Assembly: GCF_013520985.1 (NCBI RefSeq)
Contig: NZ_JACDTY010000011.1
Span: forward strand, 124,001 to 188,000
Reading direction: 5' to 3'
Length of the DNA: 64,000 nt
Source: Mesorhizobium neociceri
Lineage (GTDB): Bacteria; Pseudomonadota; Alphaproteobacteria; Rhizobiales; Rhizobiaceae
The notes beneath the pieces were generated by a model that was not told where the DNA came from, did not search any database, and saw nothing but the letters and a program-made list of their open reading frames with translations. The position numbers and the translations under genes are program-made. Shown one piece after another: positions 15,077 through 24,862 of this stretch (the first letter of the stretch is position 1; each line of letters opens with the position of its first letter).

Positions 15077-15220
15077 CCTTCTCCCCTTGTGGGAGAAGGT
15101 GGATCGGCGCGCAGCGCCGAGACGGATGAGGGGTGTTCCAGGGAACACCAACGTCTCACTCCGCTGGAACACCCCTCATCCGTCGCCTTCGGCGACACCT
15201 TCTCCCACAAGGGGAGAAGG
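15077..15220. repeat. Palindromic intergenic repeat, family B, copy 1
   Basis: Inverted arms beginning CCTTCTCCCCTTGTGG and ending CCACAAGGGGAGAAGG enclose an inner inverted pair GGATGAGGGGTGTTCCAG / CTGGAACACCCCTCATCC. The arms differ internally: one has GGATCGGCGC...GAGAC, the other GCCTTCGGCGA. It ends 9 bases before the stop of the DUF559 gene. Confidence 0.85.
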
Positions 15221-15228
15221 GAGAATCA

Positions 15229-15600
15229 TCACCGCCACGGCTGCAAGTTTGTGTCCCTTACATAGGCGATGACTGTATCGCAGACGGCATCCAAATCCTT
15301 CAGCACATCATCATTCCAGAAGCGCAACACGCGAAAACCTCTCGCATGCAACTCAGCCGCGCGGATTCGGTCAGTCTCCGAGTCGGCGTGTTGGCTACCG
15401 TCAATCTCGACGATCAGGCCGGCCTCAACACAGACGAAATCGGCAACGTACTTTCCGATAGGAGCCTGGCGCCGAAATTTGATCCGGTCGAGCCTGCGGT
15501 CACGCAGTTCGTGCCACAGCTTGCTTTCGGCCTCGGTCATCTCGCGCCTCAGCGCACGGGCGAAGCTGCGTTTGGCAGGAGGGACGGGTTGGTGCGGCAT
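15229..15600 (-). CDS. DUF559 (endonuclease-like) protein
   Basis: A 123-aa protein of the DUF559 family, whose core resembles the very-short-patch repair/PD-(D/E)XK nuclease fold. Landmarks are '[20 protein letters not shown]', '[16 protein letters not shown]', '[12 protein letters not shown]' (likely metal-binding acidic residues) and '[18 protein letters not shown]'. All conserved positions are present, so it looks intact. It lies between two family B palindromic repeats, 9 and 14 bases from its ends. A second, frameshifted member is at 22751. Biological role not established. Confidence 0.85.
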
Positions 15601-15613
15601 GGCGTCAGACTAG

Positions 15614-15696
15614 CCAACGTCTCGCTCCGCTGGAACACCCCTCATCCGTCTCGGCGCTGCGCGCCGATCCACCTTCTCCCACAAGGGGAGAAGGGA
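15614..15696. repeat. Palindromic intergenic repeat, family B, half copy
   Basis: This corresponds to one arm of family B (from AACGTCTCGCTCCGCTGGAA through CACAAGGGGAGAAGG) without its partner. It lies upstream of the DUF559 start on the other side of that gene from copy 1, and just before lepA. Confidence 0.75.
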
Positions 15697-15746
15697 AGAG
15701 GGCGCCCCGCTTGCCCCTGCTTACAGCCCCTGCTAAAGCGCGCGCC

Positions 15747-17552
<1,806 letters not shown>

Positions 17553-17555
17553 GCG

Positions 17556-17643
17556 GTCCGGCCTTCGGCCGGACGCATCGACCCGGTGGGTCGATGCGAG
17601 CGCAAATCCGGGTGGGAGCTGCCGCAGGCAGCGGGTCCCACCC
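17556..17643. other. Three consecutive stem-loops after lepA
   Basis: Three perfect stems follow the lepA stop: GTCCGGCC/GGCCGGAC (17556-17574, 3-base loop), CGCATCGACCC/GGGTCGATGCG (17574-17598, 3-base loop), and GGGTGGGA/TCCCACCC (17610-17643) enclosing an inner GCTGCC/GGCAGC. None ends in a T-run, so factor-independent termination is doubtful; the first may still help end lepA transcripts. They separate lepA from the low-G+C cassette. Confidence 0.55.
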
Positions 17644-17761
17644 CGGGGGTTACGGCAGTGCGGTGACCTGATCGCGCGCAGCGCGGCCCTGAAGCTACAA
17701 GCCGGAAGATCAGAAGCCGTGCGTCAAGGCTCTATTCCATGCCGCATACCGAGGCTGTTGA

Positions 17762-18415
17762 TCACTCCCCAAGAATGTCAAACAGTGACGATTGATCGTC
17801 ATCGTGGACGACGCGGGCGAGAAAAACCCCCTTAATTTCAACATGTGGGTAAGCCTCGTGCAGAAGTGCTTGCGCCGCCTTGAAAGAAGCGCCTCTCGCG
17901 ATCACATCGTCAAATACAGCTATCGTATCAATAGCTTGCGGTAGATGAGGGGTTTGGAATGTCCAACCTGCCTTCAAGCTTTCAGGGTCTGGGCGATGAT
18001 TAGTATCATGAGCCGCAATGCGCTCTTGGTGTTGTATTATACAATTAATAGTCGTGGCATGAGCGCCAAAACTCCTGTTGATTAGCCTCAAAAGCCTATC
18101 GTCATACGCAGGATGCCCGATAGGCTTGCTACACGGAATTGGACACCAAGCAATTTTCGGCAACCTTTCTTTGAGCACCGCGCTACGAAGCTTTTCTGCC
18201 CAATAATCAGTAGACCGAGCCTTGTGTTTATAGCGGTGGACATTCTCGTCCCGAATCGTCGGACTCATTTTGAAGTTTAAAATGTGGTTATTCGTCTCTG
18301 ACTTATAGCCTCCGTGCGCGGTATATTCTCCGAGGTATAAGACGTAATCATCCGGCACTAGGAAGCCGTGATCGCCTCGTGTTAGGTCATCGATCTTTGT
18401 AAAGCGCGCTGACAT
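17762..18415 (-). CDS. Phosphoribosyltransferase-fold protein, putative toxin of a ShosTA-like pair
   Basis: A 217-aa protein. Residues of about 165-179 carry the PRPP-binding loop of type I phosphoribosyltransferases ('IAVFDDVIARGASFKAA'), preceded by a 'WCPIPCSKPIG' strand-loop near 90-100 like the ComF/PRTase fold. The N-terminal 60 residues are not typical of biosynthetic PRTases. Its ATG lies 29 bases inside the end of the DprA-like gene, so the two are coupled. Codon use and base composition are clearly less GC-rich than in the neighbours. In ShosTA defence pairs (from memory of the literature) a PRTase toxin is kept silent by a DprA-like antitoxin. A competence-type ComF role is less likely. 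Confidence 0.75.
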   Translation of the reverse strand: MSARFTKIDDLTRGDHGFLVPDDYVLYLGEYTAHGGYKSETNNHILNFKMSPTIRDENVHRYKHKARSTDYWAEKLRSAVLKERLPKIAWCPIPCSKPIGHPAYDDRLLRLINRSFGAHATTINCIIQHQERIAAHDTNHRPDPESLKAGWTFQTPHLPQAIDTIAVFDDVIARGASFKAAQALLHEAYPHVEIKGVFLARVVHDDDQSSLFDILGE

Positions 18416-19292
18416 TGGCTAAAATATCTTCAATACCCGAAACTCGGATCGCGCCGAGTTCCTCAAATCTATGGGGCCATGTTATATCGGGCCTACGAAA
18501 ACAGCTTTCAAGAATCAATAACGGTCGACCTTGTGCTAAGGCCGCCCGTGCTTGCGTCAGTGTCCCAGAGGTTTCCCCAGCTTCTACTATAACAGTCGCA
18601 TCAGTTAAGGCACTCATCGTTACGTTTCGTTCAGGGAAAAAGGTGCGGGTCTTATTCAAAGGCATGGCCTTGTACGCCACGACCGGGACTTGAGATATCA
18701 AAAGATGCTCTCGAGATATCTTCTCATGAATAACTCTATTCTCACGCGGATAGGACGTAGAAATCGGAGTGCCAACTACTGCAATTGTCGGGAACTTTAG
18801 TTCTATTGCTGTTTCATGGACGATTGCATCAATCCCTTTCGCCAAGCCGGAGACGGGGATAATTTTTTCAGAAATTAACCCTTCAACTATTCGTCGGGCC
18901 TGCAAAATGCCAGCATCACTGGGTTCGCGAGTTCCTACCACCGCGACGGAAGGTTGCTCCGATAGAGCCCAATAACCTTGATAATAGAGCAGCTCAACAG
19001 GATGTTTCGCCACTCGAATTTTGCTGGGGTATTCACCAGCGCCGTGTATCCTGACGCCATATGGGGCTGAGCTGAATTTCCGGATCTGCTCGTCTGCTAG
19101 CTCGGCATATTTGATTGCAGTGGGATACGGGACAAAATCAGAGGGGACGGCGAAAGGTGCGCCGCCAAACTTGTCTGCGATCGACTTAAATGATGCCGCA
19201 TGATCCAGCCACAGGGCCTCGTAAGCGCCCATTTCCAACCAAGGGGAAATGGGCTCAGAAGACTTAAGATCGAATTGCTTGGCTGCGGTCAT
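18387..19292 (-). CDS. DprA/SMF-like Rossmann protein, putative antitoxin of a ShosTA-like pair
   Basis: A 301-aa protein with the DprA core: 'VVGTREPSDAG' (118-128), 'VSGLAKGIDAIVHETA' (147-162), 'TIAVVGTPISTSYPRENR' (169-186), 'FFPERNVTMSALTDATVIVE' (218-237) and 'AGETSGTLTQARAALAQGRP' (238-257). The first 100 residues do not look like the SAM domain of DprA, and the C-terminal winged helix is missing. It is therefore not a plain housekeeping DprA. It is the first gene of a two-gene unit with the PRTase downstream (29-base overlap). The region is AT-richer than its surroundings, which suggests horizontal transfer. The 185 bases upstream hold the likely promoter. Confidence 0.85.
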   Translation of the reverse strand: MTAAKQFDLKSSEPISPWLEMGAYEALWLDHAASFKSIADKFGGAPFAVPSDFVPYPTAIKYAELADEQIRKFSSAPYGVRIHGAGEYPSKIRVAKHPVELLYYQGYWALSEQPSVAVVGTREPSDAGILQARRIVEGLISEKIIPVSGLAKGIDAIVHETAIELKFPTIAVVGTPISTSYPRENRVIHEKISREHLLISQVPVVAYKAMPLNKTRTFFPERNVTMSALTDATVIVEAGETSGTLTQARAALAQGRPLLILESCFRRPDITWPHRFEELGAIRVSGIEDILANVSALYKDR

Positions 19293-19477
19293 TTTATCTA
19301 TTTAGGGCTGCATCGCCGATTGTTCGACCGGAATCCGGTCAAGGCTTATCATTGGAACAAAACGAGAACATGCACAAGAGAATTTATATCCTAGTATTTG
19401 CAATTAGTTACGTTGCATCTTGACGCGGATCACCATTGGACAACGCTCTGCTCGGAAGTACCCTGGGGAAACATCAC

Positions 19478-19990
19478 ATGCGCACCGCTCTAGACACCGC
19501 CGCCTCTCTCGGCCTCGCCATCGGCGGCGCCTTCGGCCTGGCCGGCACTTTCGTCACCAGCGCGCCGCTGCGCGAAACGCTGTGGGCGATCGACGGCGTG
19601 GCGCTCGTGGTGGCCACCGCGCTGCTGACGATGAAATACCAGCGGCTGGGCAATGACTGCATAGCTGCGGGCTTCCTCACCTTCCTCGCCGGCGAGAGCC
19701 TGCTGCTTGCCGGCAATGCGGCGGGGCTGGAGGCCAGCGTGCCCTCCTATGTCGGCGGCATCTCGCTGTGGGCGGCAGCGCTTGTCCTGATCGGTGCGGC
19801 GAACACCTTTGCGCTGTGGATGCGGCTCACCGGCCTCGTCGCCGCCATCCTGTTTGTCGTGACCGTGGCCATGGTGCTGTGGGGTGCGCCGTTGCTGCCG
19901 ACCTCGGCGCCGCTGCCCGCCGCCGGCTATCCGTTCCTGGTGCTGACTTTTGCCGGCTGGATCTGGACACTTGTCTGGCCCAGGCAGTAA
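19478..19990 (+). CDS. Small multi-pass membrane protein, unknown function
   Basis: A 170-aa protein starting at ATG 19478 (GGGGA upstream) with about six hydrophobic stretches, including 'ASLGLAIGGAFGLAGTFV', 'GFLTFLAGESLLLAGNAAGL' and a final 'YPFLVLTFAGWIWTLVW'. There are few charged residues and no catalytic motif. I do not recognise a named family; it resembles orphan alphaproteobacterial membrane proteins. Codon use is normal for the host, so the low-G+C cassette ends before it. The next membrane protein gene begins 40 bases later on the same strand. Confidence 0.75.
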   Translation: MRTALDTAASLGLAIGGAFGLAGTFVTSAPLRETLWAIDGVALVVATALLTMKYQRLGNDCIAAGFLTFLAGESLLLAGNAAGLEASVPSYVGGISLWAAALVLIGAANTFALWMRLTGLVAAILFVVTVAMVLWGAPLLPTSAPLPAAGYPFLVLTFAGWIWTLVWPRQ

Positions 19991-20030: not shown

Positions 20031-20780
20031 TTGCGCAAATATCTCTTGCCGTTCCTCAGCTTCTGCCTCGACTACGCCTGGGTGAACGCGGCGGTCGTTC
20101 TGGCCGACCGGTTGTTTCCCGATGTTGGCGAGGCCGTTCTCGGCCAGCCGATGTCATGGTCGGCGCGGCAGCTCGTTTCGGTGATCCTGGTCGCTCTTGT
20201 AAGGGTGGCGCACGCCTCGGTGGGCGAATGGCTGCTTTCCTACCCGCTCAACGAGCAGCCGGAAGGCCAGCGTCAATGGGCCAATGTGCTGCTCGGCACG
20301 CTCGGTGTGCTCTCCGGCATCTGGTATGCTCTGCACCTGACCGAAGGCGATGACGGCATGCCGTTCCTGTTCATGGTCGAGCAGACGCCGCTGAAGATTG
20401 CGGCGGTCGCGCTCTACAGCGCCGTCTGCAGCTGGTGTGGCGCCATGCTGCTGCGGTTCACGCCAAGGGCGAAGTTTTACAACGCCCTGCTGTTCATCTC
20501 GTTCATCCCATTGACGTTGATAAACCAGATGTTCTCCCATGACGCGCTGATCGCCTCGATGGTGGCGCGCGCCGCCAGGGACGGCCGCACCTTCCCGCTG
20601 GAAAAGGCGGAGGCGTATGCCCGCCTGGGGGTCTACTACGCCGTCGTGCTGATCGCGGTGATGCTGGCGATCCTGTATTTCTGCCGCGAGCGGCCGACGG
20701 TTACTGACGAAGGCGCCGGGATCGTAGGCGCTCCCCCTTCTCCCCTTGTGGGAGAAGGTGTCGCCGAAGGCGACGGATGA
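20031..20780 (+). CDS. Membrane protein of unknown function with repeat-derived C-terminus
   Basis: The frame from TTG 20031 (GGGG about 9 bases upstream) gives 249 aa with hydrophobic helices near 'YLLPFLSFCLDYAWVNAAVV', 'VSVILVALVRVAHASVGEWL', 'ALLFISFIPLTLINQM' and 'YYAVVLIAVMLAILYFC'. No known motif was recognised. The last 13 codons ('SPLVGEGVAEGDG') and the stop codon are supplied by a family B palindromic repeat starting at 20736, so the native C-terminus was probably altered by its insertion. The start codon is uncertain because no in-frame ATG is available nearby. Confidence 0.65.
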   Translation: MRKYLLPFLSFCLDYAWVNAAVVLADRLFPDVGEAVLGQPMSWSARQLVSVILVALVRVAHASVGEWLLSYPLNEQPEGQRQWANVLLGTLGVLSGIWYALHLTEGDDGMPFLFMVEQTPLKIAAVALYSAVCSWCGAMLLRFTPRAKFYNALLFISFIPLTLINQMFSHDALIASMVARAARDGRTFPLEKAEAYARLGVYYAVVLIAVMLAILYFCRERPTVTDEGAGIVGAPPSPLVGEGVAEGDG

Positions 20781-20879
20781 GGGGTGTTCCAGGGAACGTC
20801 AGCGCCTCACTCCGCTGGAACACCCCTCAACCGTCTCGGCGCTGCGCGCCGATCCACCTTCTCCCACAAGGGGAGAAGG
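20736..20879. repeat. Palindromic intergenic repeat, family B, copy 3 (overlaps coding end)
   Basis: A complete family B element (CCTTCTCCCCTTGTGG ... CCACAAGGGGAGAAGG). Its left arm is read as the last codons of the upstream membrane protein gene, and its right end lies 73 bases before the next start. Confidence 0.85.
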
Positions 20880-20952
20880 AAGAAGCGCTCGCATGTGGCG
20901 CTTCTCCCCCGACCGTGCGAGCGTGGCGTCTCCGATTCGGGACCCCACCGCC

Positions 20953-21300
20953 ATGCTCCGCCTCACCCTTGCCGCCCTTCTCATCGCCACCCCGGCGCAT
21001 GCCGCCGACATGGCGTTCTTTGTCAAGAACCTGCGCAGCCAGGCTGTTGCGGTGGAGCTGTTCAGCCGTGACCGCAAGATGTCGTGGCCGGGCGACGACC
21101 AGGTGTTTCTGATCGAACCGAACTCGCAGAAATCGGTGCCGATCTCGTGTTCCCAGGGCGAAAACATCTGCTACGGCGCCTGGGTGAACGGCAACGACGC
21201 GATTTCCGCCGGCGTCGGGCCGGACAACGATCAGCCGTGTGACACCTGCTGTTTCATCTGCGTGGAGAAGACGACGGAGACGATCGATCTGGTTGAGTGA
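20953..21300 (+). CDS. Secreted six-cysteine protein, paralogue 1
   Basis: A 115-aa protein with a signal peptide (1-18, 'TPAHAAD'). The mature part contains 'VELFSRDRKMSWPGDDQVF', 'ISCSQGENICYGAWVNG' and the C-terminal 'CDTCCFIC'. The second protein at 22292 shares the same layout and cysteine spacing (C-x6-C-YGAW and C-x2-C-C-x2-C, end 'ETIDLV'), so the two are paralogues. No known family was recognised; disulfide bonding or metal binding outside the cytoplasm is likely. ATG 20953 was chosen because the longer frame reads through a palindromic repeat. Confidence 0.75.
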   Translation: MLRLTLAALLIATPAHAADMAFFVKNLRSQAVAVELFSRDRKMSWPGDDQVFLIEPNSQKSVPISCSQGENICYGAWVNGNDAISAGVGPDNDQPCDTCCFICVEKTTETIDLVE

Positions 21301-21371
21301 GACGCTCGGCGAGCTTGACGCCCTTGCCGCCATCGCCCTAGCCTCTTGTCACCCACCACGAGGAAAGTTCC

Positions 21372-23723: not shown

Positions 23724-24707
23724 ATGCTTTCCCGCGTCTTCGGTTTCGGCCGCCGTCCCTTCGAATCGCTGTCGGAACAGGAGATCCTGGCGCTGGCAAT
23801 TTCGTCCGAGGAGGATGACGGGCGCATCTACCGCGCCTATGCCGACGGGCTGGCGGACACCTTTCCGCAATCGGCGAAAGTGTTCGAGGCGATGGCGGAG
23901 GAGGAAGACGGCCATCGCGATTCCCTGATCGAGCTCTACCGCAAGCGTTTCGGCGAGCGCATTCCGCTGATACGGCGCGAGCATGTGAGGGGCTATTACG
24001 AGCGCAAGCCCGACTGGCTGGTGCGGCCGCTGGGCATCGAGCATGTGCGCAGCCAGGCCGAAGAAATGGAGCAACAGGCCTATCGCTTCTACGTCGAAGC
24101 GGCCAAGCGCACCAGCGACGCCTCGACCAGAAAACTGCTCAACGATCTCGCAGCGGCGGAGCAAAGCCATGAGAATTCGGCGCATCGGCTGGAGCAGAAA
24201 CTTGTGCCGGGCGAGGTGAAGGACGAAGAGGAAAGCGCCGAGCAGCGCCAGTTCATCCTGACCTATGTGCAGCCGGGGCTGGCCGGGCTGATGGACGGCT
24301 CGGTGTCGACGCTGGCGCCGATCTTTGCCGCGGCGTTCGCCACGCATGACACCTGGCAGACGCTGCTGGTCGGCCTTGCCGCCTCGATCGGCGCCGGCAT
24401 TTCGATGGGCTTTACCGAAGTCGCTTCCGACGACGGCAAACTGTCGGGCCGCGGCTCACCGCTCAAGCGGGGGCTCACCGTCGGCGTCATGACGACGCTG
24501 GGTGGGCTGGGCCACGCACTGCCCTATCTCATCCCGCATTTCTGGACGGCGACGGCGGTTGCCGCCGTGGTGGTGTTCTTCGAATTGTGGACAATCGCCT
24601 TCGTCCAGAACCGCTACATGCAAACCCCCTTCCTGCGCGCGGCGTTTCAGGTGGTGCTGGGCGGCGCGCTGGTGTTTGCGGCAGGGGTGCTGATCGGGAA
24701 TGCGTGA
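23724..24707 (+). CDS. mbfA: Membrane-bound ferritin-like iron exporter MbfA
   Basis: A 327-aa fusion. Residues of about 15-165 form a ferritin-like diiron four-helix bundle with E-E-x2-H type ligands ('EEEDGHRDSLIELYRKRFGE' and 'AAAEQSHENSAHRLEQ'). Residues of about 185-327 form a VIT1/CCC1-type transporter with 'LAGLMDGSVSTLAPIFAAAF' and 'SIGAGISMGFTEVASDDGKL'. In Agrobacterium and Bradyrhizobium MbfA exports iron and protects against iron and peroxide stress. The start ATG 23724 has AGGGTGA upstream, and an Irr box directly precedes it. Confidence 0.96.
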   Translation: MLSRVFGFGRRPFESLSEQEILALAISSEEDDGRIYRAYADGLADTFPQSAKVFEAMAEEEDGHRDSLIELYRKRFGERIPLIRREHVRGYYERKPDWLVRPLGIEHVRSQAEEMEQQAYRFYVEAAKRTSDASTRKLLNDLAAAEQSHENSAHRLEQKLVPGEVKDEEESAEQRQFILTYVQPGLAGLMDGSVSTLAPIFAAAFATHDTWQTLLVGLAASIGAGISMGFTEVASDDGKLSGRGSPLKRGLTVGVMTTLGGLGHALPYLIPHFWTATAVAAVVVFFELWTIAFVQNRYMQTPFLRAAFQVVLGGALVFAAGVLIGNA

Positions 24708-24715
24708 GGTTCTTC

Positions 24716-24862
24716 CCTTCTCCCCCTGTGGGAGAAGGTGGATCGGCGCGATAGCGCCGAGACGGATGAGGGGTGTTCCAGCGGAGTGAGACGTTGGTGT
24801 CTTCTGGAACACCCCTCATCCGTCGCCTTCGGCGACACCTTCCCCCACAAGGGGGGAAGGGG
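24716..24862. repeat. Palindromic intergenic repeat, family B, copy 4
   Basis: A complete element between mbfA and the ABM gene. The central part is inverted relative to copy 1 (GTTCCAGCGGAGTGAGACGT is here in the left arm), showing that modules are exchanged between copies. It lies between converging genes, where its long stem could also end transcription on both sides. Confidence 0.8.

Follow-up and report, generated by a model that had tools for sequence, protein, structure and literature searches.

What are the two overlapping genes that separate lepA from the next conserved gene in Mesorhizobium neociceri, and what do they do for the cell? In the window analyzed here, the whole 64,000-nucleotide stretch of contig NZ_JACDTY010000011.1 from position 124,001 to 188,000, this interval holds a gene for a DprA-like protein and one for a phosphoribosyltransferase (PRTase), which a first-pass annotation of the sequence had proposed to be a ShosTA anti-phage system. 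Our analysis makes it quite probable that the pair is a short-form ShosTA toxin-antitoxin defence system and belongs to the cargo of a chromosomal defence hotspot bounded by lepA and a hydrophobic-protein gene. The observations behind this reading are family membership, gene layout, an intact phosphoribosyl pyrophosphate (PRPP) loop and DprA core, foreign base composition, patchy occurrence and a variable slot.

Both open reading frames (ORFs) were recovered intact, ATG-initiated and in the same orientation on the minus strand. In reading direction the DprA-like gene, shosA (18387..19292, 301 aa), comes first and shosT (17762..18415, 217 aa) second, with the overlap of 29 bases that had been reported. 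The PRPP loop DDVIARGAS, described earlier as intact, was located at ShosT residues 169–177 (17885..17911, minus strand), and its residues D169, D170 and G175 are invariant across three aligned homologues. The drop in base composition was also reproduced. The line 18301–18360 has 29 G+C of 60 bases, and the pair as a whole has a G+C content of 0.493 compared with 0.635 for the whole window. When the stretch was scanned with sliding windows of 1531 bases at a step of 50, only 4 of 1250 were as low as the pair or lower; these start at 17751–17951 and all overlap it. G+C at third codon positions (GC3) is 0.49 for ShosT and 0.47 for ShosA, and 0.81–0.88 for five neighbouring genes.

Profile searches placed both proteins in ShosTA, as the first-pass annotation had suggested. 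The 301-aa protein matched the PADLOC ShosA profile PDLC03961 with 288.4 bits (E 1.5e-86, residues 19–293 of 301), and the 217-aa protein matched the ShosT profile PDLC03962, which is 237 positions long, with 111.3 bits (E 1.6e-32, residues 4–206 of 217), so that both profiles are covered nearly end to end. By these sequence matches the pair belongs to ShosTA. ShosA also matched the solved ShosA 9vzo in the PDB (E 3e-22). Its DprA core (PF02481, residues 80–281, E 4.1e-50; 18450..19055, minus strand) is its sole Pfam match at E up to 1. Within the 79 residues that precede the core lies a conserved GAYE[AST][LI]W motif, shared by all nine ShosA proteins compared whose partner is a short ShosT; in the window it reads GAYEALW (residues 22–28; 19209..19229, minus strand). 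ShosT itself had no Pfam match and no match to the PADLOC PsyrT profile, in each case at E up to 1.

The pair could instead be a housekeeping one, with DprA and ComF homologues serving DNA uptake or nucleotide salvage. The DprA core is common to housekeeping DprA, and in a fold comparison the predicted ShosT model was equally close to ComF (7p0h) and to ShosT, a result compatible with a ComF relative. However, two further DprA homologues are encoded in the same genome, and one of them, on another contig (C33), has a stronger PF02481 match than ShosA and is likely the housekeeping dprA. ShosA scored 139.3 bits against the NCBIfam dprA model TIGR00732, under the cut-off of 191.15. A housekeeping role is therefore unlikely. 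In addition, 142 of 146 genomes of the genus gave no ShosT match, and PADLOC profiles match both proteins. The C33 gene, the dprA cut-off and the patchy ShosT thus disfavour a ComF/DprA housekeeping pair, which we regard as most improbable.

The pair had also been described as a divergent and possibly new subtype. This did not hold and a new subtype is ruled out: the PADLOC profiles (PDLC03961 plus PDLC03962) already cover the short-toxin form, with the same order of ShosA then ShosT and adjacent or overlapping genes, and relatives on plasmids and phages have the same layout. By sequence, the window pair is a member of an already known system in the form that PADLOC models. The difference lies with the solved structures, which are 9vzo and 8zva (deposited as DprA) for ShosA and 8zvb, 8zvc and 8zvd for ShosT. 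The solved ShosT chains have 393–424 residues, and the 217-aa window toxin, which is not full-length in that sense, aligns to about residues 164–404 only; the N-terminal part before about residue 164 has no counterpart. The solved ShosA match begins at about residue 69 of the window ShosA, with the N-termini outside the alignment. The full chain length is not part of the 237-position PADLOC ShosT profile, and we therefore filed the window pair as the short form. PsyrTA (RqlHI) is alike in joining a DprA-like antitoxin to a toxic PRTase domain, but in that system the domain forms the C-terminal end of a RecQ-like helicase (PMC4670107). The window pair differs in that its 217-aa toxin is not fused to a RecQ-like helicase and no helicase belongs to the pair, and the PsyrA profile gave ShosA 61.8 bits compared with 288.4 for the ShosA profile.

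A second pair of related layout was found elsewhere in the same genome (G000:C8, L218:8957-11251), where a 351-aa DprA-like gene is followed by a 411-aa HAD-PRTase fusion. The DprA-like protein matched the ShosA profile with 246.7 bits, and the GAYE[AST][LI]W motif was not found in its first 60 residues. The N-terminal part of the 411-aa protein matches HAD phosphatases and its C-terminal part matched PsyrT (29.6 bits) and ShosT (25.3 bits), both weakly; in a sequence search of the PDB, no ShosT chain was among the best 60 of its 68 matches. Counting this genome, 3 of the 144 searched in the genus have full-length relatives. The layout looks alike and the size of the 411-aa protein is near that of solved ShosT, and the pair is possibly a ShosTA with a longer toxin layout.

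Occurrence in related strains was patchy. Counting the genome studied here, 4 of the 146 in the genus have a ShosT, and in the wider family a profile match was obtained in 10 of 297 genomes, own included, three of the ten weak and partial. The foreign composition and this patchy occurrence indicate that the pair was probably gained horizontally, in line with the earlier proposal. A genome scan returned two loci, in Candidatus Phyllobacterium onerii and Thioalkalivibrio sp. ALJ24, and both pairs match the same PADLOC profiles. The window proteins differ from these in degree only, ShosA and ShosT being 74% and 44% identical to the Phyllobacterium copy and 53% and 33% identical to the Thioalkalivibrio copy. 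The Phyllobacterium pair lies about 0.5 kb from lepA with gene order and overlap kept; the Thioalkalivibrio pair is surrounded by genes that appear phage-like from their sequence. A ShosT match was obtained in 13 annotated plasmid records; in 9 it covers at least 80% of the toxin, and ShosA adjoins in 9 of 9. ShosT matches were also obtained in five phage records (Burkholderia phage Mana in two of them, Pseudomonas phage Riah, and a further two from Pseudomonas phages), and ShosA stands beside ShosT in Mana and Riah. Across nine ShosTA pairs, of which three share a genus and cannot count as independent, ShosA was the better conserved partner in 34 of the 36 comparisons (mean 55% vs 39% for ShosT).

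Of the three further copies in the genus, two have a broken toxin frame. In one (G004:C4:33104-33718) ShosT has two in-frame stops and in the other (G133:C2:2273116-2273710) it lies in two pieces; the adjoining matched ShosA stretch is stop-free in both. A broken toxin beside an open antitoxin is what one would expect were the toxin the costly partner. Such breakage would also suit a decaying remnant that no longer works. In the window, however, both frames are open, the residues of the PRPP loop and of the DprA core are in place, and the Phyllobacterium copy shares the gene order and the overlap, so that we consider decay of the window pair very unlikely.

A mechanism can be proposed from published work on ShosTA. 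ShosT would use PRPP and disturb the nucleotide pool, leading to DNA damage and a stop of growth, and ShosA, as a DprA-like DNA binder, would restrain ShosT or help to repair the damage. A phage that upsets DNA replication or a host process would tip the balance, and the infected cell would abort. As the window ShosT has no counterpart of the solved N-terminal part, the PRTase domain alone should suffice for toxicity, and a pyrophosphatase activity, if housed in that absent part, would be dispensable.

The same evidence can be read as a selfish addiction module, a toxin-antitoxin pair that serves its own retention and has no anti-phage role. The patchy distribution, the presence on plasmids and phages, and the two loci (G004 and G133) with a broken toxin frame and a stop-free ShosA stretch all fit this. 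Against it, a DprA-PRTase pair protects Escherichia coli from T7 and lambda (PMC9122126). The window pair is also the sole occupant of a chromosomal slot that otherwise carries cargo with many defence families. Given this slot context, a defence role is more probable than plain addiction, which we judge rather unlikely; the slot was examined as follows.

The slot (17553..19477) runs from the end of a conserved gene that we take to be lepA from its sequence (15747..17552, plus strand, its start being an ATG inside the listed ORF) to r184, the conserved hydrophobic-protein gene on the right flank (19478..19990, plus strand), which was matched downstream of lepA in relatives. The lepA 3′ end is present in 140 of 144 genus genomes. 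From 139 other genomes of the genus we retrieved the DNA that follows lepA, giving 140 loci (G063 yields two), and matched r184, in some cases partially, in 102 of them. Spacing was measured to the first r184 match. One locus with an r184 fragment and negative spacing (L102) was dropped, as were the 38 loci without r184 in the stretch taken (11 with less than 7 kb downstream). In the 101 scored loci the interval varied from 111 to 4896 bp with a median of 2400, and it was at least 600 bp in 92. Under a stricter rule, at least 60% of r184, it exceeded 600 bp in 83 of 92 loci. Loci with short intervals retain the lepA end and the r184 start region. The mean G+C of the interval was 0.517 compared with 0.654 downstream (loci above 800 bp), and a low-G+C block lay within 3 kb of lepA in 14 of 40 loci of other genera and in 81 of 128 of the own genus. 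As a control, r184-r276 spacing exceeded 600 bp in 1 of 8 loci, these eight being the only ones with both genes and too few to lean on.

Cargo ORFs, called by a longest-ORF rule, differed from locus to locus: 98 of 170 of at least 110 aa had no homologue at another sampled locus. All 130 clusters of at least 110 aa were scanned with PADLOC in three groups, one representative per cluster. The representatives matched 293 families (group of 32), 239 (of 45) and 16 (of 53), and 50 flank representatives matched 4; these are counts of families rather than of matching proteins, and in many cases several of the profiles describe one system redundantly. For the proportion of defence genes in the cargo, a 10-locus sample is the only source. 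Of the longest cargo ORFs drawn at random, 4 of 10 matched PADLOC (PDC-S28, HamB, DpdB-like and LmuB) compared with 0 of 10 flank ORFs, a small sample that is not significant alone and in which some flank ORFs may not be genes. The other six sampled proteins had no PADLOC match, and such unmatched cargo are candidates for undescribed systems or for non-defence cargo. Pfam was run on two of the three representative groups (25 of 33 families for the second), and the matches listed include SIR2, GmrSD, AAA_15, reverse transcriptase, NACHT, HamA and DNA methylases, together with periplasmic binding proteins and a DDE transposase. Conserved flanks, variable content and enrichment of defence families over the flanks, the marks of a core defence hotspot, were all found at this site. 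The pair had been placed outside phage or satellite hotspots; this view was not supported, as the slot is variable with many defence families in the genus, and the pair has relatives on phages and plasmids.

An integrase travelling with its cargo, as in a site-specific integrative element, was not found: the tyrosine integrase family PF00589 has 16 matches in the genome and none on the 210-kb contig of the window, serine recombinases not having been searched. Slot cargo would rather be swapped through recombination in the shared flanks than by an integrase of its own. The site resembles cDHS1 of Pseudomonas aeruginosa, a core defence hotspot of 1–224 kb (median 26 kb), in its fixed core-gene flanks, variable defence cargo and lack of an obvious single mobile-element class (PMC10250203). 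It differs in being small (111–4896 bp, median 2.4 kb), in having other flanks and in lying in a rhizobial group. Among the matches listed in the literature searched we found no description of a lepA defence hotspot, beyond which older work could exist, and a paper on Sinorhizobium integration hot spots mentions no lepA. The lepA/r184 slot may be undescribed.

Second, partial copies of the lepA 3′ end were seen downstream of lepA at nine loci (L079, L094, L101, L132, L162, L176, L243, L251 and L282). Six of the 140 loci from other genomes of the genus have a copy of at least 130 nt, and three of the 40 from other genera have one of 68–128 nt; matches of 17–32 nt in seven further own-genus loci were dropped. 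In the window no copy of this kind was seen, the longest of its short matches reaching 31 bases. The breakpoints differ, except for one common to L079 and L101, where the copy is preceded by a gene whose product is 47–49% identical to a flank-gene product. Seven of the nine copies tested had no piece of the flank gene, one of these seven having a short, chance-level match. We lean towards imported lepA-flanked fragments as their origin. Four copies begin 128–135 nt short of the point where lepA ends, a pattern compatible with a preferred site, and the copies may instead reflect site-specific integration into the lepA 3′ end. Separately, peptide strings of the type LRWNTPHPS...LLPQGEKG recur in probably spurious ORFs of the window (15133–15750, 20746–21333 and 24456–24812). 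As several such ORFs share them, a dispersed DNA repeat seems to be scattered over this region.

A broader proposal appears to us evenly balanced: that lepA/r184 serves this rhizobial genus and some neighbouring genera as a compact, integrase-free site of defence exchange, at which single small systems are swapped by flank recombination; that much of the unmatched cargo is undescribed defence; and that the short ShosT is a minimal PRTase toxin that does not need the additional part present in the solved ShosT. The short-form ShosTA pair adds a chromosomal member from a rhizobial group to the family. It also opens to testing the question of whether the PRTase alone is the toxin, which can be addressed since the same genome also has the DprA-like/HAD-PRTase pair. 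The slot matters more than the pair: about 100 related genomes each have a small, bounded cassette adjoining lepA, and these cassettes are a ready list of candidate phage-defence systems.
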